Positions 6,048-41,238 are shown, counted from the first letter of the stretch. The stretch: DNA of 42,054 nucleotides from a virus (IMGVR_UViG_3300042507_001474:1-42054); one strand, 5' to 3'. The notes: generated by a model not told the origin, from the sequence alone. A program made the numbers and translations.

Positions 6048-6223
6048 AGATTCTCAAGAAGTTCGAAGAGAACCTTGAGTACCTTGGATTTGATTTAGCT
6101 CCTGTCGCTTGGGATATAGCAAAGATAAAGTTTGATTCTGACGATGACCGCTTAGCTTTGCTAGAGGAATTAACAACAACGAAGGAGGCTGAGCCAGTTG
6201 TCAATGACGGAATGGTGGAATGA
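6044..6223 (+). CDS. Small acidic helical protein
   Basis: A 59-residue reading frame that begins in an ATGA overlap with the previous stop and ends 26 bases inside the next gene. It starts MKILKKFEENLEYLGF and contains an acidic patch (FDSDDDRLALLEEL). Its 3' end carries AAGGAGG (6182-6188), the ribosome binding site of the large downstream gene, so it probably couples translation. Function unknown. Confidence 0.7.
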   Translation: MKILKKFEENLEYLGFDLAPVAWDIAKIKFDSDDDRLALLEELTTTKEAEPVVNDGMVE

Positions 6224-9200
6224 CCCACGTTATACTGACCAGCCTACTTCGACTCCTCCATCAAAGGTAGATGGGTTTAAGAAAAATCAATTCGACAATA
6301 CCAAGGTTGGAAAGATTGAGGAAGCGGTTGTTCCTAAAGTAATGGGAGCGATTGAATCCGCACAAAAAAGTAAATTTGGATTTATAGTTAATCCAGCAAT
6401 GCGTGTTCTTGAATACTTTGGTGAAAATGTTGTGCAGCCAATTACTCAAGGCGTATCTACTGGTCTGCTTACAGCAGAAGCTGCTCGCCAAAAGAAGGGC
6501 AGCAACATTGTAGAAAACTTTAGGTTTGCAAAAAAGCAGGCTAAAAAAGTTTCTATGGGACAGGCATTGGCTACAACTGCAACACGTGCCATCGCACCTG
6601 TAGTTGGTTCATTTACTAACCCTACATTTCTTGACGAAGATTTTAATGTGTTTGATGACAAGCAACGCGACAAGGCATTCCGCGATGAATGGATTGGTGT
6701 GTTTGCATCTGGTGGTACTGACCTAGCACTTGCAATGCTTGGTACTAAAGGTGCTGGCACTGCTATTCGTGCAGGTGGTAAAAAGGTAGTTGGACCAAAG
6801 AAAATTGTAACTGGCGAAGATATGAACCAGTTCCGCAACAACCTCAACAACATTGTTAATGAGGTGGAGGCTGGCGTGGTTGCGGAAGCACGTACACGTA
6901 CAGGTCTTAGCGTTCTTGTAGATGATGCAGTAGAGACACGCGACGTGTCTAAGCTTGCTGCAAACCCGCTTATTAGCGAAACATCTAACCCATACCGTAC
7001 AGCAACAATCGTTTCACGATTAGATAACCACCGCGATGTAGCAGATTATCTGCTAGCAGAACGCGGTGATGCTGCTGCATTCAATCGATTCTTTGCTAAG
7101 AATCCACTTGATGCAGACCACGTTGATGACTATGGGTTTGACAAGACAACACCTATTACAGATTTTGCTGACATTGGCAAAGACATGCTGTCACCAAAGT
7201 TGGAAACTCGCTTTCAGCGAATCATAGATGCAAAGAAAGCATCAGACCCACAATTTGCTAGAGCTCTTGAAGAGTTCGCAAGTAACGTACCACGTGGCGT
7301 TGGCGTTGAATCATGGCAGCCAGGACGATTTGCTGCGCTTGAATCAGTTGGTCTAGCCAAGAAGAAGCTTGCTATCCAAGCACAGTTTGGTGACTTAAAG
7401 TTATTTGGTGACGATGGTTCCAGCAATTGGAAAACCGAAGTTTATCAAAGCAAGCCTTACGACCGTGTAATCCGTACAATTGCATGGGTTGGTTCAGGTC
7501 GCCCACAAGGTCATATTAATATTTCTAACCCACGTAAGTTTGAAGCATCAAGCGATTTGTTATCAGACCTCAACCGTCTTCAATTCCTTAGCGGAGCCGA
7601 AGGCGCTAAGTTTAAGCGACGTATGGTTGAGCAGTTCCTTAACGCACAAGATGACACACAACGTGCTATTGCACTTGGTCGCATCGAAGAACAGGTAATG
7701 GTTCGTCTTGCTAAGGCGTACGGCATTGTAGATATGCAAGACATTCGTTCTGCATCTGATGCTGTAAAAGAAATTACTCGCTGGCGTTCAAAGACTGCAG
7801 AGAACCGCGCAACTATTAAGCAGTATGCTGCTAAGAATGGTTGGGTTCCTGGAGAAGATGGTTCAATTAACGTACAGAACTTTATCTCTGTTGCCAACGA
7901 AGCTCAGACAATTCCTATGTTGGACTTCCGTAAGCTTGAGGTTGAAGTAATCTTCAACGCTCGTCGCATGGCTGGCAAGGGAACTAAAGTTACTGATGCT
8001 CAGTATTACGGAGCACGTGTATCAAAAGCGTTTATGAATACAGGTCAATTACTTGACCTTGCTAACATGGTGTTCAGCAACTTAAACTTGATTCGTCTTG
8101 CTTACATTCCTAAGAACTCTATTGTAGACCCAATGGCTCGTGCCAGCATGGCACTTGAGTCAATGGAATTAATTCGTAACGGCGCACCTGCGTTGGATAA
8201 TATTGTTTACAACTCAAGCCTTAGCAGAGAATCACTAAAAAGATTTATTCCAGGTACTCCAGCAGCACAGGCTCGCAAGCGAGCCAAGGATGCTAGGTTC
8301 CAAATCGAACGTTATCAAGCAGAGATTGAACCAAAGATTGCTGCATGGGAGAAGGCACAAGCTGCCGAAGATGCTGCACGTCAAGCAATTAAAGTTGCTG
8401 CAAAGCAGCGTGAATCTGCACTTAAAGTAGCAGCACGTAAGCAGGGTGACCCAGATGCACAAGCTGCAGTACATGCAGCAGATGATGCACTATTCGAGGC
8501 GCGTACCGCTTTGGCTAACGCAGAAGCAGAACTTGGTCGCGCAGCAGATTTGCTTAACGGATATGCCAAACTTATTCAAAAGCAGCGCAGAGATTGGGTT
8601 GACTTTGAAACAACAAAGCAAACTCGCAAAGCTGGCAAGAAGAGTCTTGGAAAAGATAAAGAAGTTATTGTAAGTGCTAGCGGTAAGAAGTACACAATTG
8701 ATGGTCTTGCAGACCCTAACGTGCGTGGTGTTAACGCATACATGGCAGAGGTTGACTCAGCACAGAACTTCTATTCAACTGCTATGCAGTCAGAAATTTC
8801 TCGCAGGCTTCAGGCAGACGGAACACGTTTTGTAAAGATTGACCGTAGAGATAGAGCAGAGTATATGAATGCTTTGGCTCATATTGCTAACCGACAGATT
8901 CGCAACGAAATCAATATGCCTATCGGCATGATGATGCGTGGAGATTCACCAGCAGATATTCTTAAGTGGCTTTATTCGCCAGCTGGCAAGGAATACCGTC
9001 TACGTATGCAGTCACGATTTGGTAAGGAAATGACCAAGGATGACTTTGCTGCATGGATTACACAGACAAGCGACAAGCTTGTCAAGATGTATCCAGACCC
9101 AGACCTACGCAAAATTATCTTGCAGCGCAACGTAAGCGTTGACGAAGTAGATGCAATGCTCTACGGACGTACTGACCTTCTTGAGTCAATTGATGGACCA

Positions 9201-11171
9201 AACATCAAGCTCAATGACCTTAACGTTGCAGAACGTGGACTTGTTAAGCTAGGCGGTGCAACCGACTACGCATGGCGCATACTTTCCAAGTCTGAAAACA
9301 AGCTTGCACGTAACCCACTGTTCTTGTCTTACACAAGAGCAGAGATGAAAGACCTTGTTAACGCAGCAGAACGTGCTGGTATCGATGTTAAAGATGCAGT
9401 AGTTAATAATGAGATTCGTCAGATTGCTTATCGCAAGGCACTTGCTCGCGTAGAAGAAACTCTTTACTCTTCACGTCGTTTGACCAACGGTATGTACGTG
9501 GCACGTTATGCCATGTCATTCCCACTAGCATTCTTTAACAGCCAACTTGTTGCTCTTCGCCTCATGGCTCGTAACCCAATGAATGCCTACTGGTACAACA
9601 GTATCCAGCAAGCATTCGACAACTACGAAGCTTATGAAGATAAAGAGGGTAATACCTACAGCAAGATATCTGACGTGCCTCGTGGCACACCAGTAACTGT
9701 TAAGTATCCGCTTCCGCTTGGCTGGGGCAATAAGGCACTTAAGCCGTTTATGGACCCACGTGGTGGTGGTATTAGGTTTAATCCTAAGCAACTAGAGTTT
9801 ATGGTTGCCGACCCATCAGTATCTTTCTTTGGTGGCATCGCGGTATCTGAGCTTATCAAAAATGGATTCATGGAGAACACCCCATGGGGTGTACATGGTG
9901 AAACCATTTCGCAAGCATTACGCGACTTCCTTGGCGATGACGTTTACGAAAGCAGTGTTCTCTATGGAGGATACCCAATTGAGGGGTCTAATTTATTAGA
10001 GACTACCAAGAACGCAATGCTTTCTGGATATCAGCAATCTCTTTACGATGCAGTCTATGCGTTGTTTGATGGCGGAAAGATTCGCGCTGGAGCCAGTGAC
10101 AGATATGTAGATGATGTAATGACTCACTACAAAGTAGCTTATGCTGAATGGGATAGAAACGGTCGTGTAGGTAACCCACCTAACATGAAGTCAGCTGCAA
10201 AGTCTGCTGCTAACATGGCGTTTATCAGAGCAATCGTGCAGTTCTCTGCACCAATTTCAGCAAGCTTTGACCCAGTTACTCGTGCTGCTACAGCCTACTA
10301 TGCCGACCTCGTAGAGTTGGCAAGCGGAGATTACAAGATAGCGCAAGACGTAATGATTGACGAGTGGGGTATCGACTCACTTGCACTTATTGGCTCTAAC
10401 AAAAAGAATGTTGCTGGCGTAGCCACAACATTAAATGACCTTAAGATGATTCGCAAGAATCCACAATTGCTAGAAACAATTGGTCGATTCAATACAAAGT
10501 ATGCTGGATTGTTGTCTTCTGGATACGGCGATTTAGCTGGTTCAGGTAGCGGTGTAGATGATTACTCAACAGAAGTGGCAGCTATCTATAAGAAGCTTAA
10601 CTTCCCTGGTGAGTTTAATAATCCAATCACACAGCAGAAGACATCTTCAGAACTTAAGCGTAGCGTAGAAGCCCGACGTGGTTGGGGTGAATACCAAAAG
10701 GCTGTTGATTGGCGAGATGCCAAGATGGCTGAGTACGGCATTGGCTCTACATACGAAACACGGTATGCAACTAGCGGTATCAAGCGAGTATTCGACGACA
10801 TGGTTCAAGATGTCGAAGATGAATTTAAGGGCTGGGTTGATGAACGTGACGAAGGTCGTAAAGACTACTGGGAAGGTTTAATCCCAACAATCGATAACAT
10901 CCTAAACGATACCAAGTGGAGAGCGCATGCGCTCAACCAAGGAAGCGTTAAGTGGGAAGAGATTGCTTATTGGACTGCGCGAGCAAAGCAGTTTAAGAAA
11001 GCCTATAGCAGACCAAATGAAACAGATAAAGGAAAGCTGATTCTAAAGCAGCAATTCAATCAGTTCCATTACAACTTCTTGCAGACAGCCTCCGAGGAAT
11101 TTGCAGTATTTTCCACACGATGGTTACAGAATATGCCAGAACTAGAAACAGAATTCGTGGTGAATAAATAA
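6198..11171 (+). CDS. Giant virion protein (internal or ejection candidate)
   Basis: At 1657 residues this is the largest gene, taking about 12% of the genome. The AAGGAGG at 6182-6188 is 9 nt from the TTG at 6198 but 15 nt from the ATG at 6204, so TTG is favoured. The protein is mostly helical. Residues about 690-810 form a long Ala/Glu/Lys/Arg-rich coiled-coil region, and a hydrophobic stretch lies near YVARYAMSFPLAFFNSQL. No enzymatic motif was recognised. It sits between portal and scaffold/capsid genes, with LysM proteins on both sides. Podovirus internal or ejection proteins of similar size occupy comparable positions. A tape-measure role is less likely because no other siphovirus tail genes are present. 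Confidence 0.7.
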   Translation: MSMTEWWNDPRYTDQPTSTPPSKVDGFKKNQFDNTKVGKIEEAVVPKVMGAIESAQKSKFGFIVNPAMRVLEYFGENVVQPITQGVSTGLLTAEAARQKKGSNIVENFRFAKKQAKKVSMGQALATTATRAIAPVVGSFTNPTFLDEDFNVFDDKQRDKAFRDEWIGVFASGGTDLALAMLGTKGAGTAIRAGGKKVVGPKKIVTGEDMNQFRNNLNNIVNEVEAGVVAEARTRTGLSVLVDDAVETRDVSKLAANPLISETSNPYRTATIVSRLDNHRDVADYLLAERGDAAAFNRFFAKNPLDADHVDDYGFDKTTPITDFADIGKDMLSPKLETRFQRIIDAKKASDPQFARALEEFASNVPRGVGVESWQPGRFAALESVGLAKKKLAIQAQFGDLKLFGDDGSSNWKTEVYQSKPYDRVIRTIAWVGSGRPQGHINISNPRKFEASSDLLSDLNRLQFLSGAEGAKFKRRMVEQFLNAQDDTQRAIALGRIEEQVMVRLAKAYGIVDMQDIRSASDAVKEITRWRSKTAENRATIKQYAAKNGWVPGEDGSINVQNFISVANEAQTIPMLDFRKLEVEVIFNARRMAGKGTKVTDAQYYGARVSKAFMNTGQLLDLANMVFSNLNLIRLAYIPKNSIVDPMARASMALESMELIRNGAPALDNIVYNSSLSRESLKRFIPGTPAAQARKRAKDARFQIERYQAEIEPKIAAWEKAQAAEDAARQAIKVAAKQRESALKVAARKQGDPDAQAAVHAADDALFEARTALANAEAELGRAADLLNGYAKLIQKQRRDWVDFETTKQTRKAGKKSLGKDKEVIVSASGKKYTIDGLADPNVRGVNAYMAEVDSAQNFYSTAMQSEISRRLQADGTRFVKIDRRDRAEYMNALAHIANRQIRNEINMPIGMMMRGDSPADILKWLYSPAGKEYRLRMQSRFGKEMTKDDFAAWITQTSDKLVKMYPDPDLRKIILQRNVSVDEVDAMLYGRTDLLESIDGPNIKLNDLNVAERGLVKLGGATDYAWRILSKSENKLARNPLFLSYTRAEMKDLVNAAERAGIDVKDAVVNNEIRQIAYRKALARVEETLYSSRRLTNGMYVARYAMSFPLAFFNSQLVALRLMARNPMNAYWYNSIQQAFDNYEAYEDKEGNTYSKISDVPRGTPVTVKYPLPLGWGNKALKPFMDPRGGGIRFNPKQLEFMVADPSVSFFGGIAVSELIKNGFMENTPWGVHGETISQALRDFLGDDVYESSVLYGGYPIEGSNLLETTKNAMLSGYQQSLYDAVYALFDGGKIRAGASDRYVDDVMTHYKVAYAEWDRNGRVGNPPNMKSAAKSAANMAFIRAIVQFSAPISASFDPVTRAATAYYADLVELASGDYKIAQDVMIDEWGIDSLALIGSNKKNVAGVATTLNDLKMIRKNPQLLETIGRFNTKYAGLLSSGYGDLAGSGSGVDDYSTEVAAIYKKLNFPGEFNNPITQQKTSSELKRSVEARRGWGEYQKAVDWRDAKMAEYGIGSTYETRYATSGIKRVFDDMVQDVEDEFKGWVDERDEGRKDYWEGLIPTIDNILNDTKWRAHALNQGSVKWEEIAYWTARAKQFKKAYSRPNETDKGKLILKQQFNQFHYNFLQTASEEFAVFSTRWLQNMPELETEFVVNK

Positions 11172-29850: not shown

Positions 29851-30120
29851 ATGAATATGCCAGACTTATCCAAAGGTCTTTGTCGAGAAGTCGGTACAGA
29901 ATTTTTTTACCCAGATTCTGAAAATGACAGCGACACATCTATATATGCTTTTGGTAAGAAGATTTGTTCTGGCTGTGAAGTAAAGCAAGCTTGCCTTGAT
30001 TGGGCTGTAAGACATGAAGGTTATGGTTTATGGGGTGGTACTACCCCACGTGATAGAATGGCTATCCGTCGGACTCTCAACATAAAGCTAGAGTCTATTA
30101 TCCCAGGAGAATATGCATGA
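29851..30120 (+). CDS. WhiB-family iron-sulfur transcription regulator
   Basis: 89 residues with the four WhiB cysteines C11, C39, C42 and C48 (ICSGCEVKQAC) that hold a 4Fe-4S cluster, followed by the diagnostic turn YGLWGGTTPRDR and a basic C-terminal helix. WhiB-like proteins occur only in Actinobacteria and their phages, and act with the host primary sigma factor. AAGGAG precedes the ATG. The stop overlaps the next start as ATGA. It probably redirects host transcription or affects superinfection, as reported for phage WhiB proteins. Confidence 0.9.
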   Translation: MNMPDLSKGLCREVGTEFFYPDSENDSDTSIYAFGKKICSGCEVKQACLDWAVRHEGYGLWGGTTPRDRMAIRRTLNIKLESIIPGEYA

Positions 30121-32404: not shown

Positions 32405-32719
32405 TTGGCTGAAGACACAACCATCCTTGAATTTGAAGAGGATGCTCAGAAAATATACGACGAGTTGCTTGCCATCTTGGTAAAGAAGCAACTTGATTAT
32501 GGTCCATACAACATCTGGCATGCGCCAGGTGGCGCAACCAATGGGCTGATGGTTCGTATGTCAGACAAGCTAGAACGTTTGAAGAATCTGATATACAAGA
32601 ATAGAGAGCCGAACAATGAATCTCTTGAAGATTCATTCGTTGACATGGCTAACTATGCAATCATCGCATTAATGGTGCAGCGTGGAGTGTGGGCTAAGTA
32701 TGCCGAGAAACAGAAATAA
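32405..32719 (+). CDS. Nmad1/MazG-like protein (DUF1599)
   Basis: Starts at TTG 32405, with AAGGGG 5-10 bases upstream. 104 residues. QLDYGPYNIW, RMSDKLERLKNLIYKNREP and ESLEDSFVDMANYAIIAL match the nucleotide-modification-associated family (DUF1599), an all-helical relative of dNTP pyrophosphatases. Likely role: hydrolysing or sanitising nucleotides, or supporting modified nucleotide pools. Biochemical substrate unknown. Confidence 0.75.
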   Translation: MAEDTTILEFEEDAQKIYDELLAILVKKQLDYGPYNIWHAPGGATNGLMVRMSDKLERLKNLIYKNREPNNESLEDSFVDMANYAIIALMVQRGVWAKYAEKQK

Positions 32720-32987
32720 AACTTACGAAGAGCAGCGCATCTCTCGCATACGGTCTTACGGTATTAGTGTCGAAGAGTACGACCGAATGTTTGCCGAGCA
32801 GAATGGTGGTTGTTACATTTGTGGGGAAGCTCCCACCACGAGAGCGCTCGATATCGACCATTGTCATACGTCTGGCAAGGTACGAGGACTTCTTTGCAGT
32901 AACCATAATCGCGCCCTTGGTTTATTAGGTGATGACCCTGACCTGTTGCTTAAGTCTATTGAATACTTGGTGAAGAGCCATGGTTGA
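32700..32987 (+). CDS. Endonuclease VII-type HNH nuclease
   Basis: A GTG at 32682 is possible, but the ATG at 32700 (95 aa, begins MPRNRNKTYEEQR) is preferred. Zinc ligands C38 and C41 (CYIC) pair with C66 and H69 or N70 (LLCSNHN). D53-H54 with H56 (IDHCHTSG) is the HNH active site, followed by RALGLLGDDPDLLLKSI. This matches recombination endonuclease VII, which resolves branched DNA before packaging. It overlaps both neighbours. Confidence 0.85.
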   Translation: MPRNRNKTYEEQRISRIRSYGISVEEYDRMFAEQNGGCYICGEAPTTRALDIDHCHTSGKVRGLLCSNHNRALGLLGDDPDLLLKSIEYLVKSHG

Positions 32988-33621
32988 ACTAACACGTGAC
33001 CATGAGATATGGACACAGGTAGATGACATAACTTCTATCATCGCCTACAACTTATCCAAGAAGTACCATCGGTTTGCTGAACGTGATGATATCAAGCAGG
33101 CAATGAATGAGTATGCGTGGAAGCGCAAAGATAAAGTCAGTGAGTATCTCATGCGTGAAGATGATATCGAACGGAAGATGGGATACAAAGCTTTCACTAC
33201 CTTCATGCGTAGGGCAGGCGAGCGATACGCTCGCAAGGAAAAGGCTAAGGCTTTAGGGTTTGAGCTTGGTGATGAATACTTCTATCGTATTGAGATGGTT
33301 GAGAATCTGATTAAAGTTCTTGGCTCGGAAGATTCCCACTTGGTTAACCAAGTAATGGACCCAGATATGCATGGTGTTCAGGCTAAGCGACAGGTTAGTG
33401 AAGGCAACAACTTGCTAGCTTTGCTAGCAGATGTAGACAAGGCGATGAAAAGATTAGACCCACGTACACAGGGGATACTTAACAGTCGCTTCGCTCAAGA
33501 CCTACCACTTACGGAGATAGCAACCGCTTGGGATATATCTCCGCAACGAGTAGAACAGATAGCCACACGTGGTGTTAAAGATATTATCGAACTACTCGGA
33601 GGTGCTACACCTTATGCCTAA
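32980..33621 (+). CDS. Sigma-factor-like protein
   Basis: 213 residues, overlapping the upstream gene by 8 bases. The C-terminal 45 residues resemble sigma region 4, with a helix-turn-helix (LPLTEIATAWDISPQRVEQI) followed by ATRGVKDIIELLGG. The N-terminal part is helical and basic and could be a degenerate region 2. It may direct host RNA polymerase to phage promoters, perhaps the repeated TATATA elements on the minus strand (inference). A DNA-binding regulator of another class is possible. Confidence 0.65.
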   Translation: MVELTRDHEIWTQVDDITSIIAYNLSKKYHRFAERDDIKQAMNEYAWKRKDKVSEYLMREDDIERKMGYKAFTTFMRRAGERYARKEKAKALGFELGDEYFYRIEMVENLIKVLGSEDSHLVNQVMDPDMHGVQAKRQVSEGNNLLALLADVDKAMKRLDPRTQGILNSRFAQDLPLTEIATAWDISPQRVEQIATRGVKDIIELLGGATPYA

Positions 33622-34551: not shown

Positions 34552-34581
34552 AAAAGGCGGGGGTGTGAGCCCCCGCCTTTT
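34552..34581. terminator. Bidirectional terminator between convergent operons
   Basis: GGCGGGGG (34556-34563) pairs with CCCCCGCC (34570-34577) around TGTGAG. AAAA before and TTTT after lengthen the stem and provide a T run on both strands. It closes the + strand module and the - strand operon. Confidence 0.9.
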
Positions 34582-35685: not shown

Positions 35686-36666
35686 TTAGATTCCTTTCGT
35701 GATTAGTTCAAGAGCCTTGCTCTTGATGCGGTCAGCTGAGCCAGTGATGATTCGTTCGGCTCGTGTTGCTTCTGACTTGTGGCTGTAGTGGTCAGCGTAT
35801 TCGACGATTGCTTGGAACGCACCGAATGCTGTGCCGTACAGTTCTTCTTGAGTACCAGTAGCACCGTTGTAGATTTGCTTGACTGCATCTCTTGATGCAA
35901 TCGCTGAGTTGTACTGACGGCGTTGACCTGTGGTCAGCATATTGTATGGTGCATTCTCTACTGCAGTTGGTAGCGAGAACATCTTCTTGAAGATGGCATC
36001 TACCTCAGCATCGGATACCTTCTCATTAATGAGACGGTTACCCACTGTCTCATACATCTGGATACCAGCGTATGTTACTGGGATAATCTTGCGGATATCT
36101 TCGATACGGAATTCCGCATTGGTTGTATGCTTCAACGTAAACGTTGCAGTCTTTGAGAAGATACCAGCAATCTGGTTGGTGCATCGTAAACGATTGATGC
36201 TTGGTGCAATCTGCAAAGCAGTTGAACCATCATGTGAAGTGCGAGCCACAAGGTAAGCCTTGTGTTCATCGCCCTGAATCTTCACACCTTCTGGCAGTTC
36301 GAGCACCATGTATACCTGTGCTCCACCTTTTACTTCACCAGCATATGCATATCTGGCATCGCCAGAATCAACTAGTGCATCCAGTGCAGAGAACATCTCT
36401 CCATTCTGGAACACCTTGTATCGACCGCCAACTGTACCTAGTACAGACTGACCGCCATCTTGATTGGTACGGATAGTTGCGAAAGTGTTAGGCACTTCGA
36501 TAGTGCTGACACCCTTATCGTTCAAGGCTAAAGCTTGAACGTCTGCTAGTGATACGTTCCAGTCAAGCCCTGCTTGACGTGCTGCATCTACTGCTGATGT
36601 TGCTGATACTTCTTCTCCGATAATGCTATAAGCATTACGGCGTGACTTGATTGTTAGTTGTGACAT
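35686..36666 (-). CDS. DUF932 phage/plasmid-like protein
   Basis: 326 residues with the order of the DUF932 family: an N-terminal SLADVQALAL part, then TVGGRYKVFQNGEMFSALDA, YLVARTSHDGSTALQIAPSI and LRCTNQIAG. Function of the family is unknown; members are common early genes of phages and plasmids, and a DNA-metabolism or anti-defence role has been suspected. It is the largest gene of the minus operon. Its leader (36667-36700) shares the AACCAACC...GAAAGGA pattern with other minus genes but lacks the 17-bp dyad. Confidence 0.8.
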   Translation of the reverse strand: MSQLTIKSRRNAYSIIGEEVSATSAVDAARQAGLDWNVSLADVQALALNDKGVSTIEVPNTFATIRTNQDGGQSVLGTVGGRYKVFQNGEMFSALDALVDSGDARYAYAGEVKGGAQVYMVLELPEGVKIQGDEHKAYLVARTSHDGSTALQIAPSINRLRCTNQIAGIFSKTATFTLKHTTNAEFRIEDIRKIIPVTYAGIQMYETVGNRLINEKVSDAEVDAIFKKMFSLPTAVENAPYNMLTTGQRRQYNSAIASRDAVKQIYNGATGTQEELYGTAFGAFQAIVEYADHYSHKSEATRAERIITGSADRIKSKALELITKGI

Positions 36667-36705
36667 GGTACTTCCTTTCAGGTTGGGTTGGTTGTGAGGT
36701 ATATC

Positions 36706-36975
36706 TTACAGTCGGCTGTTGAAATCGTCAACTGCAGGGGAGAGTTGGTCATGGTAATGACCTTGGTAGCAGATGATTCCGTTGTCCTCTACACGTACGA
36801 ACCACGTTACATATGGGTCAACGGTACGTTGATAGGGCTCGGTACTCTGCCTGTCCTCTGTCCATAGACAGAGAGCTATGTAGCCAGATGAATCCCATGC
36901 TGGCTTTACATCTATGATGACCGCCCCATTCTTGCAGCGGTCACCACGTCGTGGCACTAGGGTTAATGTACCCAT
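36706..36975 (-). CDS. Hypothetical protein, 89 aa
   Basis: The upstream gene's last codons (ATGAAAGGAGTATAA) contain the AAGGAG ribosome binding site of this ATG at 36975, so the two are coupled. Beta-rich, with GTLTLVPRRGDRCKNGAVII and YVTWFVRVEDNGIICYQGHY. No recognised domain. Confidence 0.65.
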   Translation of the reverse strand: MGTLTLVPRRGDRCKNGAVIIDVKPAWDSSGYIALCLWTEDRQSTEPYQRTVDPYVTWFVRVEDNGIICYQGHYHDQLSPAVDDFNSRL

Positions 36976-36977
36976 GT

Positions 36978-37415
36978 TTATACTCCTTTCATTCCGACTA
37001 GGATTTCAGATGGCTGAGCCATCTTTGACTGCCATAGGTAGCAGTTAGAATCAAGGCGTGAGCCAAAGGTTCTGATGTAATCAGATAGGTCTTCTGTCTT
37101 GTCTGTTAAGCAAGACTTAACAACGTCGACTGATACGAACACACGTCCATTCCATAGACCCATCTGTCCGATGTTGGTTGGTACTTCGAGGCAACCATAT
37201 TCATCTTGTTCCCAGCCCACTCCTTCGGAGCAGATGAGAGCATACTTGTTATCACCGAAGACATTCTTCTCTTCGAGAGTCACGAACAGCAGGCTATCTA
37301 CTGTGCATGTGCTTGGTTCTGTGTACTGCAGTTTGTATATCTCGTTAGCAATCTTTGCTAACTTAACTCCGTCGACTATCTGTCCGACGTAGCCCTTTCG
37401 TCTGATGCTTGGCAT
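36978..37415 (-). CDS. Hypothetical protein, 145 aa
   Basis: ATG 37415, with GAAAGGAA just upstream and a copy of the 17-bp dyad at 37450-37466. Begins MPSIRRKGYVGQIVDGVKLA. Mixed alpha/beta with several aromatics (SKMAQPSEILVGMKGV at the end). Function unknown. Probably one of the early, dyad-controlled genes. Confidence 0.65.
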   Translation of the reverse strand: MPSIRRKGYVGQIVDGVKLAKIANEIYKLQYTEPSTCTVDSLLFVTLEEKNVFGDNKYALICSEGVGWEQDEYGCLEVPTNIGQMGLWNGRVFVSVDVVKSCLTDKTEDLSDYIRTFGSRLDSNCYLWQSKMAQPSEILVGMKGV

Positions 37416-37449
37416 ATCATTTCCTTTCGGGTCGGTTGGTTATACATAT

Positions 37450-37466
37450 GCACAGCGAAGCTGTGC
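37450..37466 (-). promoter_or_regulatory. 17-bp dyad copy A
   Basis: GCACAGC-GAA-GCTGTGC, flanked by TATACATAT on the downstream side and TATCTT on the upstream side (+ strand view). It lies 34 bases before the start of the 145-aa gene and overlaps the TAG stop of the gene before it. One of four copies with the same arms. Likely an operator or leader hairpin. Confidence 0.75.
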
Positions 37467-37936
37467 TATCTTGATACTTGCATTACGCGGTCGAAGTCAG
37501 ACTCAACTTCATCCACTGATGTGTTGTCAGAATCGATATCGAAATCTGGTTCAGAGTCGATGCGAATCTCTTCTGCGATTGAACGTGCATCATCTTCTGA
37601 TGCAGCCTTGATTCTGAATGTAGCACTGACATCGTAACGAACCTGCACTGTATATTCTTTTAAGAATATAAGTTCGTTGCCAAAGATATCATTGAGAATC
37701 TCAGATAAATCTGAGAAAGATATCTCATCATCTGGGTCTGACTCATTCTCCTCAATCACGTCATTGATTGCGGTGTATAGGTCACGTACCTTGTTGCGAT
37801 GGTCACTAACTAGCGTTGAGTAATTAGAAACCTTGGTTTCTAGGTCGGATAGTTTCGTATTGAGTTGTTGTACTAGTACATCTGGTGCAATGTAATCGGT
37901 AACTGTTGCACCGAATGGTGTTGTTTCTTCGGTCAT
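37466..37936 (-). CDS. Coiled-coil acidic protein, 156 aa
   Basis: The frame is open further upstream (to 37981), but the ATG at 37936 follows GAAAGGA by 7 bases and gives MTEETTPFGATVTDYI, so it is chosen. A coiled coil (VQQLNTKLSDLETKVSNYST) is followed by acidic and beta segments (VQVRYDVSATFRIKAAS) and an acidic tail (DFDIDSDNTSVDEVESDFD). Function unknown. It is preceded by dyad copy B. Confidence 0.65.
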   Translation of the reverse strand: MTEETTPFGATVTDYIAPDVLVQQLNTKLSDLETKVSNYSTLVSDHRNKVRDLYTAINDVIEENESDPDDEISFSDLSEILNDIFGNELIFLKEYTVQVRYDVSATFRIKAASEDDARSIAEEIRIDSEPDFDIDSDNTSVDEVESDFDRVMQVSR

Positions 37937-37977
37937 TTGTTTTCCTTTCGGTTGGTTGGTGTTGCCCTTATATATAT

Positions 37978-37994
37978 GCACAGCTTTGCTGTGC
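37978..37994 (-). promoter_or_regulatory. 17-bp dyad copy B
   Basis: GCACAGC-TTT-GCTGTGC at 41 bases before the 156-aa gene. On the minus strand it is followed by ATATATATAAGGG, which includes a -10-like TATATA. Arms match copies A, C and D exactly. Confidence 0.75.
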
Positions 37995-38009
37995 TATCTT
38001 TGATGCGTG

Positions 38010-38192
38010 TTAGCCACAACATGCACCATCATTGGTATCGGCACAGCATTCTGAACAGAATGGTTCATTGTCCTTCATGCTATTGCGACAGCCATATTCA
38101 TCCATCGTGTTGGTACATGGATGTCCTTCGTATCCGAAGCAGGTTAGTTGAGCCAACTCTTCGGCTGTCATATCGTAGATATGTTTAGTCAT
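38010..38192 (-). CDS. Cysteine-rich small protein, 60 aa
   Basis: Three in-frame ATGs lie within 10 bases (38201, 38195, 38192); AAGGA and GAGG best fit 38192 or 38195. The protein begins MTKHIYDMTAEELAQLTC and ends EPFCSECCADTNDGACCG. Eight cysteines, including CSECC and ACCG, suggest one or two metal sites. It overlaps the upstream gene. No family recognised. Confidence 0.6.
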   Translation of the reverse strand: MTKHIYDMTAEELAQLTCFGYEGHPCTNTMDEYGCRNSMKDNEPFCSECCADTNDGACCG

Positions 38193-38517
38193 CATCCTCA
38201 TCCTTCATATGGTGTGGGTCTAGTGCCAGTTTGCTATCTATTAGATAGGCTCTAACTGCATTGTCGATACCCTCATATCCATCTTCATCGATGGATACTG
38301 GTTGCCAATGGTCACGAAGAATCCATGCCATCAACACCTCTGGTGTAAAGACAGTGGTGATGTCGTACTCTTCTTGGTCTGCCACCATTGCTTGCAATGA
38401 GTGGAAGATTGCTAGGTCTGTCATGCTTGAACGCCAGCCATCTAATGATTGGCGGTATGCGGTCATGGTTTCGCTAGTCTTTGCTAGCAAAGCCACGCTA
38501 TCTTCGATTGTATTCAT
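38185..38517 (-). CDS. Hypothetical protein, 110 aa
   Basis: ATGA overlap with the gene upstream on the minus strand. Mostly helical (SETMTAYRQSLDGWRSSM), with a Trp-rich segment (VLMAWILRDHWQPVSI) and an acidic tail, DPHHMKDEDDD. Function unknown. Confidence 0.65.
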   Translation of the reverse strand: MNTIEDSVALLAKTSETMTAYRQSLDGWRSSMTDLAIFHSLQAMVADQEEYDITTVFTPEVLMAWILRDHWQPVSIDEDGYEGIDNAVRAYLIDSKLALDPHHMKDEDDD

Positions 38518-38636
38518 GCTGATACCCCCTTATTGGCGCAGTCATAGCAAGTCTTTTCGACTTGCACTCCTAGTACGAATGCATCTATTCCTGAATAGAT
38601 GATGTTGTCTTGTGTGTTACAGATGGTGCATCTCAT
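38514..38636 (-). CDS. Zinc-ribbon microprotein, 40 aa
   Basis: The frame stays open to 38711, inside the gp88-like gene, but AGGA is 6 bases before the ATG at 38636, which gives a tidy protein MRCTICNTQDNIIYSG... Two pairs, CTIC (C3, C6) and CYDC (about C31, C34), make a minimal zinc ribbon. Coupled to its neighbours by short overlaps. Confidence 0.65.
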   Translation of the reverse strand: MRCTICNTQDNIIYSGIDAFVLGVQVEKTCYDCANKGVSA

Positions 38637-38644
38637 TTGGTTCC

Positions 38645-39373
38645 TCATTTCTTTGCGATAGCAAAGCGAACATCCACCTTGCCATCGACACATAGTCGGC
38701 ATGTTGCACAAGCACTACCTTCGGTAGTGATGAGTGGGATTGAGCCCAGATTCTCTGGGCATTTGGCTCCCACTTTGCCTGTCATGTTGAGCATGGTGTC
38801 CTTTGCATCAGCAAAGGTGTCAGCAAGATAGGCAATCTTTATCTTGTCGGTTTGTTTACGTAAGTAAACAGCATCCGATTTGTTCTCATCATCTGTACTG
38901 AAGTACAGCGATAGGTTGTACAGTCCAGCCAGAATTGTGGCAGCGGACGGCACTCTTGTATAGACCCAGAACTGGGTCTTGTGATTGTGTAGTTCGATGA
39001 CTCGTCGCCATGCATAGGCATAGGTATCGGAGAAGAAATCCCCATCCCAATGGATGCGGAACATCGGCTCTGCATTCTTGGCTTTGCATTCTAATTCGAA
39101 TGCAGTAATCATGTCATCAAGGAGTGACACCATAGTGTCATAGTCTGCATCTTTGATGGTGTTCCAGTTGTGTAAGAGAGTATCTCTTACTGAGGGGAAG
39201 ATGCGTTCTAACTTTCCAGCGTAGCAAATCTTCTCGCATATGCTGGTTGCATTAGGACATGAGTAGGACTTGCCACTTGGCAAGCCGAATGTGTTGGCAA
39301 TTGCTGAGCGCTTGCCGTTCGGTGTTGGTAGGTTGGCTACCTTTCGGTCGTTAGACCGTTTGAGTCCTGCCAT
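38645..39373 (-). CDS. gp88-like cysteine-rich protein
   Basis: 242 residues resembling the mycobacteriophage gene-product-88 family as I recall it. An N-terminal block (KRSAIANTFGLPSG) precedes C39, C46 and C50 (SCPNATSICEKICYAGK). A core MFRIHWDGDFFSDTYAYAW follows, then FWVYTRVPSA. C205, C222, C225 and C228 close the protein. Seven clustered cysteines suggest an Fe-S or zinc enzyme; radical-SAM-like chemistry has been suspected for such arrangements but is not shown here. GGAG precedes the ATG, and dyad copy C lies 41 bases upstream. Confidence 0.7.
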   Translation of the reverse strand: MAGLKRSNDRKVANLPTPNGKRSAIANTFGLPSGKSYSCPNATSICEKICYAGKLERIFPSVRDTLLHNWNTIKDADYDTMVSLLDDMITAFELECKAKNAEPMFRIHWDGDFFSDTYAYAWRRVIELHNHKTQFWVYTRVPSAATILAGLYNLSLYFSTDDENKSDAVYLRKQTDKIKIAYLADTFADAKDTMLNMTGKVGAKCPENLGSIPLITTEGSACATCRLCVDGKVDVRFAIAKK

Positions 39374-39414
39374 GGTGTTGCTCCTTTCGGTTCGGTTGAT
39401 TGCTTCCTATATAT

Positions 39415-39431
39415 GCACAGCTTCGCTGTGC
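39415..39431 (-). promoter_or_regulatory. 17-bp dyad copy C
   Basis: GCACAGC-TTC-GCTGTGC, 41 bases before the gp88-like gene and followed on the minus strand by ATATATAGGAAGC. Upstream, the 118-aa gene stops within 4 bases of it. Confidence 0.75.
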
Positions 39432-39434
39432 TAT

Positions 39435-39791
39435 CTATGACTTTGCGTATGTGGTGAAGTCATCGGGGATTTGTACTACTGCCCCGCGATTGTTTAGCGC
39501 AGAGTAGATACAAGCCACTGCCAGATGGTCACTGCCACCGATGTGCCATCGATACGGAGTATCGAGGTCGATATCTTCGTACTCTTTGTAGTCGTAGATA
39601 TCTGCCACGATGTCGGGAATACCATTGCCCACTTCGAATAGAAGTGTCCAGTGATATTGCACCTTGTCCCCTTCGTACCTGTCCACGTTTCCAAACGCTA
39701 GGTTCAAGCCACGTCGGGTTGTTGTGATGTATCCCTTTAGGGATGTGCCATTGATATCTATCTCTGGCGAATTGATTGCCTTAAGTTTCAC
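39435..39791 (-). CDS. Hypothetical protein, 118 aa
   Basis: GTG start at 39791, preceded by GGAGGA and separated by no bases from the gene upstream. Beta-rich (KGYITTTRRGLNLAFGN; YHWTLLFEVGNGIPDIVADI). A Tyr/Asp-rich centre leads to a helix (SDHLAVACIYSALNN). No family recognised. Confidence 0.65.
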   Translation of the reverse strand: MKLKAINSPEIDINGTSLKGYITTTRRGLNLAFGNVDRYEGDKVQYHWTLLFEVGNGIPDIVADIYDYKEYEDIDLDTPYRWHIGGSDHLAVACIYSALNNRGAVVQIPDDFTTYAKS

Positions 39792-40064
39792 TTAGTCCTC
39801 CTCATTGTTGAGCCATGGCTCAAGGTGATGAGCCTCTACTATGGCGTAGGCTGGTGCTGTTGGATACCCTTTCCAAAAGACTCCTTTTGGAAGTTGGATA
39901 CTCTTATGAGTATCGCCGTCATCGACTGCATAGATGGCTTCTATGCATGGTTCCACCATGGTAAGTGGAACTGGCGGATAGTGATTACCACGTAAGTGGT
40001 AACCGATTGATTGGCGAATGTCAATGACATTCTCCACTAGGTCATGTGCTAGATTGCTACCCAT
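39792..40064 (-). CDS. Conserved-type actinophage protein, 90 aa
   Basis: The frame extends to 40106, but AAGGAGG and a TAATG overlap fix the start at 40064 (MGSNLAHDLVENVIDI). The block RQSIGYHLRGNHYPPVPLTM and the end IVEAHHLEPWLNNEED are like small proteins I recall in mycobacteriophages. Function unknown. Confidence 0.7.
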   Translation of the reverse strand: MGSNLAHDLVENVIDIRQSIGYHLRGNHYPPVPLTMVEPCIEAIYAVDDGDTHKSIQLPKGVFWKGYPTAPAYAIVEAHHLEPWLNNEED

Positions 40065-40387
40065 TAGTTGTCCTCCTTGTAGTAGTGTCTTGCGATAGCA
40101 AACCATTCACTATCGCCCCATCCACCCATGATTTGGCGGATGAGTAGTGTGGCTGGGGCATCATTGCCCCATTCACGTTCGGCTAGTCCTGCCACTTGAC
40201 CGACGTATTCATCCCACTCTTCTCGAAGAGTGTTGACGAACTCGTTGATATCAGCCGATTGGCTGGCGGTATCTTTGATACCACGCCATGCATCTTCATC
40301 GTTGTCCATTACCAATAGGTAATCATTGACGAATACATCACTTGCTAAAGCAAGTCTTCCTTCTCCTGCTACTGGTGGTACTGGCAT
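40064..40387 (-). CDS. Conserved-type actinophage protein, 107 aa
   Basis: ATG 40387 in a TAATG overlap, with AGAGGGG upstream. Helical and acidic (NDYLLVMDNDEDAWRGI; FVNTLREEWDEYVGQV) with a C-terminal GGWGDSEWFAIARHYYKEDN. It pairs with the next gene in a coupled set of three. Function unknown. Confidence 0.7.
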   Translation of the reverse strand: MPVPPVAGEGRLALASDVFVNDYLLVMDNDEDAWRGIKDTASQSADINEFVNTLREEWDEYVGQVAGLAEREWGNDAPATLLIRQIMGGWGDSEWFAIARHYYKEDN

Positions 40388-40557
40388 TAGTTTTGCCCCT
40401 CTCGGATTGTTGTTGCCCAGTGCTCCTCTTCTATTGCAGACCTACGGTCTGCTATCTTGATTGCGATTACATCCCACACCATGGCTGTAAGTAATACGCC
40501 AAGGATGCCGATGAGAATCCCGACGGCAAGATAATCGCCCCAATAAAGTGCTTCCAT
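40387..40557 (-). CDS. Small membrane protein, 56 aa
   Basis: A TTG at 40569 is possible, but GGAG is 7 bases from the ATG at 40557, which begins MEALYWGDYLAVGILIGI. One membrane helix (about 10-32) is followed by a cytoplasmic-looking charged tail (IADRRSAIEEEHW). First gene of the minus operon, behind dyad copy D and a consensus promoter. Early membrane proteins often alter host physiology or exclude other phages. Confidence 0.65.
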   Translation of the reverse strand: MEALYWGDYLAVGILIGILGVLLTAMVWDVIAIKIADRRSAIEEEHWATTIREGQN

Positions 40558-40604
40558 TTGATGCTCCAATCTGCCCCGATATTTTCGAGGCTCCCCTTAT
40601 ATAC

Positions 40605-40621
40605 GCACAGCTTCGCTGTGC
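40605..40621 (-). promoter_or_regulatory. 17-bp dyad copy D
   Basis: GCACAGC-TTC-GCTGTGC, 47 bases before the small membrane gene, followed on the minus strand by GTATATAAGGGG. It lies about 60 bases downstream of the TTGACA promoter, so here it would be in the 5' leader RNA. Confidence 0.75.
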
Positions 40622-40685
40622 TATCTTGAGATGCGTAGCGCCCGCATCATGGCGCTCCATTTGTGGGCTACCAATAGCCAACCCG

Positions 40686-40730: not shown

Positions 40731-40792
40731 GCTATTAATTGCCCACACGTAAGGGCTACCTATTGCCAACGCATATGCGTGTATCGCGGGGG

Positions 40793-40837
40793 TGTCATGT
40801 CGCATGTATCGCATCATGTGTCATGTCATGTGTCATG
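40793..40837. repeat. Iteron-like TGTCATG repeats
   Basis: TGTCATG occurs at 40793, 40819, 40824 and 40831, the middle two overlapping, with degenerate GCATGTATCGCAT sequence between. It is followed by an AT-rich stretch (TTCAATAAAAGA). Such clusters can mark replication origins or repressor-binding arrays. The repeats are read directly; function is open. Confidence 0.6.
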
Positions 40838-40889
40838 ATTCAATAAAAGACACGACACACCGCATTTACGCTCAGCCGTCGGGCTGAAT

Positions 40890-40968: not shown

Positions 40969-41238
40969 ATGAATACAGCATGGACACACGATGATTTACT
41001 AGTAAATCTAGATGCTGAAGTTAACGAAGTTAAATGGGAATTGGGTATCGATTCATTCAAAGAAATCCCTGATTTCTTGGTACTGAAATCTCATGAGATT
41101 CATCATGCGAAAATTGGAGATATTCTCCAATTGGCTAACGGTAAAAACGCTGTAATTTTCGACATAGTCGAAACACCGACGGCGCTTGAAATCACTGCAG
41201 TGACTGAGTCACTGAGAGTCATCGTCAAGCGGTTCTAG
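40969..41238 (+). CDS. Early hypothetical protein, 89 aa
   Basis: The only + strand gene of the control region, expressed alone from the strong promoter at 40890 and closed by terminators. It starts MNTAWTHDDLLVNLDAEVNE and shows a helical N-terminal third followed by a small beta domain (IGDILQLANGKNAVIFDIVE and LEITAVTESLRVIVKRF). Its isolation, strong promoter and position are typical of immediate-early host-takeover or regulator genes. Function unknown. Confidence 0.7.
   Translation: MNTAWTHDDLLVNLDAEVNEVKWELGIDSFKEIPDFLVLKSHEIHHAKIGDILQLANGKNAVIFDIVETPTALEITAVTESLRVIVKRF

Follow-up and report, generated by a model that had tools for sequence, protein, structure and literature searches.

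Oriented hairpins that keep base pairing rather than sequence precede leftward gene groups in a putative podovirus of an actinobacterium

The window is the whole 42,054-nt stretch of DNA analysed here (IMGVR_UViG_3300042507_001474:1-42054), which comes from a 42-kb virus record. It codes for a terminase, a portal, a major head protein, a DnaB-like helicase and a primase, as well as for endonuclease VII, a WhiB protein and a sigma factor, and contains no tRNA genes. With their counterparts in Streptomyces podoviruses (Beephvirinae), the portal and the head protein share 40-46% identity, and the gene order is the Beephvirinae order, with a leftward block at the right end. The phage was therefore read, from its genes, as a podovirus of an actinobacterium without a close cultured relative, as searches by DNA and by the large virion protein found none. 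A host or provirus search of 84,980 genomes with the extended motif described below returned just four scattered matches, which were taken as chance. The features on which the analysis turns are the following.

32980..33621, plus strand: phage sigma factor gene (sigma-70 region 4), a putative candidate reader of the element
37438..37476, minus strand: site 4, GCACAGC-TTC-GCTGTGC (37450-37466), before gene 36978-37415; E 1.2e-7
37966..38004, minus strand: site 3, GCACAGC-AAA-GCTGTGC (37978-37994), before gene 37466-37936; E 3.7e-9
38645..39373, minus strand: GP88-family gene (PF17338, E 2.7e-54), downstream of site 2 and used to find relatives
39403..39441, minus strand: site 2, GCACAGC-GAA-GCTGTGC (39415-39431), before GP88; E 1.4e-8
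40424..40462, minus strand: fifth site, ATCAAGATA / GCAGACC-GTA-GGTCTGC (40436-40452); 41.5 bits, E 3.1e-7
40593..40631, minus strand: site 1, TCTCAAGATA / GCACAGC-GAA-GCTGTGC (40605-40621) / GTATATAAGGGG; 52.7 bits, E 2.8e-10

The dyad GCACAGC-NNN-GCTGTGC, which a sequence-only reading had reported four times, is present in exactly four copies in the window, all of them where that reading placed them and with no further copy, against none expected from 100 dinucleotide shuffles, and the four copies are real rather than chance occurrences. They stand 47, 41, 41 and 34 nt before start codons, in agreement with the earlier range of 34-47 nt, and the TATATA-like element described after the dyad corresponds to an A/T-rich box 3′ of all four. 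Conservation extends beyond the 17 bp, with A(A/T)AGATA or a close variant 5′ of every window copy, and the full oriented element reads TC-(A/T)AGATA, a 7-bp arm, a 3-nt loop, a 7-bp arm, the A/T-rich box, a leader of 20-40 nt and the start codon. The proposal of a shared leader holds for three of the four copies, whose leaders end in CCGAAAGGA, while the copy at 40605 has GATTGGAG instead. Similarly, stop codons of preceding genes lie in or near the dyad at three copies: the TAG of gene 39435-39791 overlaps the 5′ flank of site 2, the stop preceding site 4 (37466-37468) is the TAG of GATAG, and the one preceding site 3 is 15 nt off, at 38010. Site 1 is the exception, since it precedes the first leftward gene and has no gene just upstream on its own strand. 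The fifth, diverged copy shares the 5′ flank and falls within the first gene's coding sequence (40387-40557), 48 nt before the ATG of the second gene at 40387.

The earlier suggestion that related phages be scanned for the motif proved productive. When the extended motif was run against IMG/VR, 42 stretches of DNA were returned, almost all of them related, and tracing GP88 into further relatives revealed other dyads at the same place, such as GCACATC..GATGTGC, GCATAGA..TCTATGC and ACAAATC..GATTTGT, among more. After redundancy reduction, 145 sites remained; their arms fall into 18 types and follow the half-site pattern [GA]CAnANN, and in most relatives a single genome contains two to four of these types. 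The invariance of the arms that had been noted is thus a property of the four window copies and of close relatives only; elsewhere, even within one genome, both halves change together. A covariance model, which is able to score broken pairs, was built from the 49 distinct sites and recovered 62-63 sites on the sense strand of the window and of 16 full-length relatives taken together. Each genome has 3-5 of them, confined to the leftward block and always in gene orientation; outside that block there were none in the 0.69 Mb of the 17 genomes. The element is also absent from unrelated phages that carry GP88. Five more distant contigs gave no sites, which is uninformative, as they are without the leftward block. 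No Rfam family matched at gathering score, and one weak match (E 0.62) was attributed to chance. The relatives are metagenomic contigs. The site counts are not independent events, and at least about ten arm changes are independent of one another.

We then considered what is kept within the arms. The 49 distinct sites comprise 343 pair cells, every one of them Watson-Crick; changes on both sides occur in 76 cells compared with 22 in shuffles, and the covariation score is 0.549 against 0.120 for shuffled sites and only 0.03-0.08 for registers slid by 1-3 columns. All four Watson-Crick pairs occur at arm positions 4 and 6. In a mismatch-tolerant search of the 17 genomes, 439 of 439 pairs were Watson-Crick, with no mismatch and with G-U at none of 441 cells. 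Since the first searches had required symmetry, collections anchored on one arm alone were made as well. When the 5′ arm was the anchor, 102 of 119 sites were paired at 7 of 7 positions and the other 17 at no more than four; with the 3′ arm, 26 of 27 sites were fully paired and the remaining one at 1 of 7. Neither collection contains sites with intermediate pairing, and the sites with four pairs or fewer are unrelated noise. Judged from the sequences, this shows that selection acts on base pairing, that is on shape, and not on a fixed word, because the arm letters change between copies yet always pair.

This result bears directly on the reading favoured at first, in which the dyad is a double-stranded operator for a dimeric regulator. 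A partly conserved half-site ([GA]CAnA) and the four window copies with invariant arms agree with an operator, as does the invariant-arm 7-3-7 dyad of Cluster O mycobacteriophages, which is read as a dimer site (PMC4351075). However, positions 4, 6 and 7 vary freely and are always complementary, and a dimer reading [GA]CAnA would not force these positions to match. Moreover, several arm types coexist in one genome, the choice of loop is strand-biased, and even in the window the invariance extends to just four of the five sites. A plain operator is therefore very unlikely; from the original alternative of a protein-bound operator or a selected RNA hairpin, what stands is a selected element, while the operator does not fit arms that differ within a genome and remain complementary.

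The loops are strongly biased in gene sense, with AAA at 62 sites and TTT at 1, GAA at 36 and TTC at 6, TTTA at 25 and TAAA at none, and GTA at 12 and TAC at none; R-N-A loops lie on the sense strand at 113 of 145 sites. Hence, the hairpin of one strand is likely to be the functional form. The position is equally regular: the element stands about 30-50 nt before the start codon of the first gene in a group that is not coupled in translation to the gene before it, and the spacing is fixed to this downstream start even for copies within upstream coding sequence, which supports the view that it heads gene groups. In two genomes (G013 and G014) the neighbour of GP88, and not GP88 itself, has the hairpin before it, and in another an inserted gene does, which implies that the element marks a group boundary and not a particular gene. 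The idea of a mobile cassette was not borne out, as the copies keep corresponding junctions across the 17 genomes, stand at the 5′ edge of uncoupled gene groups instead of moving along with a gene, and are missing from the unrelated GP88 phages. A related proposal, that the element is a recombination joint or mobile repeat at the borders of gene modules, kept perfect by template-switch repair, could account for loops that flip (TTC versus GAA) or change wholesale (TTC versus AAA) in near-identical contexts, with flanks 93-100% identical in the former case and 99-100% in the latter, and for the presence of the element at borders where genes were gained or lost. The fixed orientation, the fixed distance to start codons and the confinement to the leftward block speak against it, and we give it hardly any weight.

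To place the element among the transcription signals of these phages, we compared it with their promoters and terminators, for which the following promoter served as a contrast.

36703..36731, minus strand: TTGACG-N17-TAAGAT, a promoter of sigma-A type before the DUF932 gene (35686-36666), where there is no hairpin

A TTGAYT-N17-KATAYT-like sequence is found in the same place at the DUF932 start in the other 16 genomes (17 of 17 in all), and the divergent gene at 40969 has TTGACA-N17-TATTCT or GATAAT upstream, which is kept in the relatives examined. Canonical sigma-A promoters thus stand at other gene starts of these phages and are absent from the hairpin sites, which do not as a set combine a TTGACA-like box with a TANNNT −10 box placed 3′ of the dyad at a spacing of 16-19 nt. 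In the box that follows the hairpin, TANNNT occurs at 9 of 145 sites compared with 37.5 ± 5 in shuffled sequences and so is avoided; the TATATA sequence was rejected as a sigma-A −10 box on this depletion, which makes a plain sigma-A promoter at the element unlikely. Upstream of site 1, no sigma-A promoter is common to all genomes. Hairpins and canonical promoters therefore occupy the same kind of position before different genes, a complementary distribution that would fit either mRNA ends made after transcription or a promoter of another kind.

The element was also considered as a short terminator or attenuator between gene groups, with a hairpin and a U-containing tail that lower read-through. 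Three copies are positioned after stop codons, and three to four U follow the stem within 8 nt, as a terminator would have it. The clear terminators of the window, at 34552 and 41313, are unlike the element: they consist of GC-rich stems of 10-13 pairs with a U-tract, whereas the element is followed by a box of alternating A and T (mean 3.6 T in 8) and shows no GC-rich stem with a U-tract. Upstream of copy 1 and of the fifth copy there is no completed gene to terminate, and no canonical promoter follows to restart transcription, so that termination is distinctly improbable.

A parallel is provided by the cultured Streptomyces Beephvirinae (Zeigle, Abafar, FlowerPower, Manuel and others), which like the window phage have the podovirus gene order and a hairpin before leftward early genes. 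In seven of these phages, a fully paired stem of 7 bp or more lies no further than 95 nt from the start for 51% of the leftward early genes, compared with 2.5% in shuffles; the share is 9% among rightward genes and, in two of the phages, 17% in the middle block. The loop is UNCG, the classical stable RNA tetraloop, in 21 of 56 stems, the arms compensate between phages at what is apparently the same gene (CGTCAGCC-TTCG, GCACGGGC-TCCG and GGGCACGTC-TCCG), and some hairpins contain a G-U pair or a mismatch. These three properties point to hairpins that act as RNA. They differ from the window hairpins in their UNCG loops, in their GC-rich stems of 7-9 bp and in being without the AGATA flank or the A/T box, and the window covariance model does not match them; they are therefore a parallel and not a demonstrated homology.

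Taking these observations together, we tentatively favour, at a little short of even confidence, the reading of the element as a transcribed hairpin that punctuates the leftward mRNA and that probably sets where each message starts, how stable it is or whether it can be used independently. In the RNA, a stem of 7-8 bp with a tiny loop would form between two A/U-rich single-stranded boxes, and cleavage may occur in a flanking A/U box, at AAGAUA on the 5′ side or AUAUAUA on the 3′ side. Such a cleavage would leave the hairpin capping an mRNA end, and each gene group might thereby gain an mRNA end of its own, stability and an unstructured leader for ribosome loading (CCAACCAACCGAAAGGAG). RNA punctuation is favoured by the fixed orientation, the Streptomyces parallel and the lack of a sigma-A signature at the site, and the helix covaries as that of a structured RNA does. 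In T7 early mRNA, intercistronic RNase III sites form hairpins between early genes, and the element resembles them as a podovirus early-gene hairpin that would yield single-gene mRNAs, although the T7 sites are longer and 7-8 bp is short for canonical RNase III. Several points count against RNA punctuation. The G-U intermediates usual in RNA, which are not strictly required, are absent from the roughly 440 pairs, which is unusual for so changeable an RNA stem, and R-N-A triloops closed by C-G, as well as TTTA, are more familiar from mini-hairpins of DNA. One copy is located well within translated sequence, certain stems have little stability (for ACAAATC, about −3.7 kcal/mol when folded as RNA), the promoter that would be needed upstream of site 1 was not found conserved in all genomes, and homology to the Streptomyces hairpins, whose flanks differ, is not established. 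Loop energies do not separate DNA from RNA, as ViennaRNA gives nearly equal energies for all triloops.

The main rival to RNA punctuation, which we hold to be a minority possibility, is a DNA hairpin promoter, in which the palindrome is extruded from supercoiled DNA, with an A/T box on either side, or, in an alternative form, spaces a TATAWA box from an upstream box of GATA type. It would be read by the host RNA polymerase with a phage factor, for example the sigma protein, and would give each gene group its own start. The phage sigma gene is present in every hairpin genome checked, a perfect co-occurrence that is confounded by common descent. The lack of any G-T pair, the complementary distribution of hairpins and canonical promoters, the lack of a conserved sigma-A promoter upstream of site 1 and the persistence of copies within coding sequence would all suit such a promoter. 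R-N-A loops closed by C-G belong to the class of DNA mini-hairpins with sheared pairs, and an AAA loop is known to form one (Chou 1996, listed in PMC5430850). The early promoters of N4 are likewise short hairpins with a 3-nt loop, a sheared G:A (here R:A) pair in the loop, C-G closure and stems that mix conserved with variable-but-paired bases (PMC4496689). However, N4 needs a virion RNA polymerase and its active hairpin, with a stable loop of G-R-A type, is on the template strand (PMC4496689), whereas the stable loop is on the sense strand here. The Streptomyces relatives, with their RNA-type UNCG loops and occasional G-U or mismatch, also argue against a DNA promoter.

A virion-packaged single-subunit RNA polymerase was not found in the 1657-aa virion protein or in the subset of predicted proteins tested. 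This protein, the only giant one, is predicted to be almost all-helical in low-confidence models and has no Pfam match, no PDB sequence match and no significant fold match; the closest PDB folds are insignificant and mostly coiled coils. A virion RNA polymerase in the 1657-aa protein was accordingly rejected for want of support from sequence or predicted fold. It is unlikely, though conceivable, that a hairpin-promoter system operates without such an enzyme, with the host RNA polymerase and a phage factor recognising a supercoil-extruded DNA mini-hairpin that has a C-RNA-G triloop (R, purine; N, any base), a perfect 7-bp stem of free sequence and A/T boxes on either side. If so, the identity of a promoter would reside in its shape and not in a word.

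The nearest look-alike found in the open-licence literature is the 17-bp repeat TGTTCGG-NNN-CCGAACA of the Cluster O mycobacteriophages (Corndog), given there as of unknown function, which is likewise a 7-3-7 dyad with an AAA/TTT-rich centre and many intergenic copies in a leftward block (PMC4351075). As described there, the Cluster O arms are invariant and about one third of the repeats lie within genes, with little orientation and a loose tie to starts, whereas in the window family changes in one arm are compensated in the other, the copies keep one orientation and a fixed distance to the start, and the loop shows a strand bias. The SAS and ESAS elements of Cluster K are also repeated just upstream of starts, for a subset of non-structural genes; according to the sections considered, SAS is a 13-bp asymmetric sequence and ESAS consists of two imperfect 17-bp repeats with a spacer of 4-13 bp in most cases (PMC3203893). 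The 13-bp GGGATAGGAGCCC was not found at the window start codons, where the leaders read CCAACC..CGAAAGGAG. The sections considered in the two accounts describe neither compensatory arm changes nor hairpin covariation for Cluster O or K (PMC4351075, PMC3203893). Dyads that recur upstream of phage genes have entered several catalogues, mostly with no more than the label 'probable dimer sites'; the divergent family described here, in which pairing is kept and sequence is not, argues against this usual interpretation. Whether the hairpin punctuates RNA or serves as a DNA promoter, it would account for the control of leftward genes in an uncultured actinobacterial phage group that is seen in many metagenomes, for which Abafar, a cultured relative that grows on Streptomyces coelicolor, offers a partial test bed.

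One further hairpin in the window looks related, its membership of the family being uncertain.

35708..35726, minus strand: TCAAGAGC-AAG-GCTCTTGA, at the 3′ coding end of the DUF932 gene

It is without the AGATA flank and stands 24 nt before the next start.

We compared the hairpin ahead of GP88, a PF17338-family gene, in three relatives (L008, L010 and L011) with that of the window, and found that the whole loop changes at once, by replacement or inversion (TTC, GAA, AAA). Since the flanks stay 93-100% identical despite this change, the sequence comparison suggests template switching or an exchange between copies. Other features of the window are as follows.

6198-11171: 1657-aa virion protein (phrog_10618)
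29851-30120: WhiB gene, rightward replication block
32682-32987: endonuclease VII gene, rightward replication block
32980-33621: sigma factor gene, rightward replication block
35708-35726: perfect hairpin TCAAGAGC-AAG-GCTCTTGA, in the DUF932 gene, at the 3′ end of its coding sequence
40770-40870, minus strand: CATGACA/TCATGTC repeat-rich noncoding stretch, upstream of site 1 (the hairpin element ahead of the first leftward gene)

The DUF932 hairpin lacks the AGATA flank, and the next start codon lies 21-24 nt downstream in most relatives. The sigma factor gene was present in all 16 hairpin-bearing relatives tested. In seven cultured Streptomyces Beephvirinae (Zeigle, Abafar, FlowerPower, WRightOn, Manuel, Dennebes and Stella; L412-L418), a stable hairpin precedes about half of the leftward early genes, 17-78 nt from the start and frequently with a UNCG loop; no description of these hairpins was found among the open-licence papers searched.

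Many copies of the CATGACA/TCATGTC repeats occur in the noncoding stretch 5′ of site 1, and changed forms lie likewise upstream of site 1 in relatives. This stretch is a possible origin of replication or a possible control region.

The large virion protein, predicted to be mostly helical, is probably an internal or ejection protein; its identity is at least 46% inside the clade and about 20% in the Streptomyces Beephvirinae.
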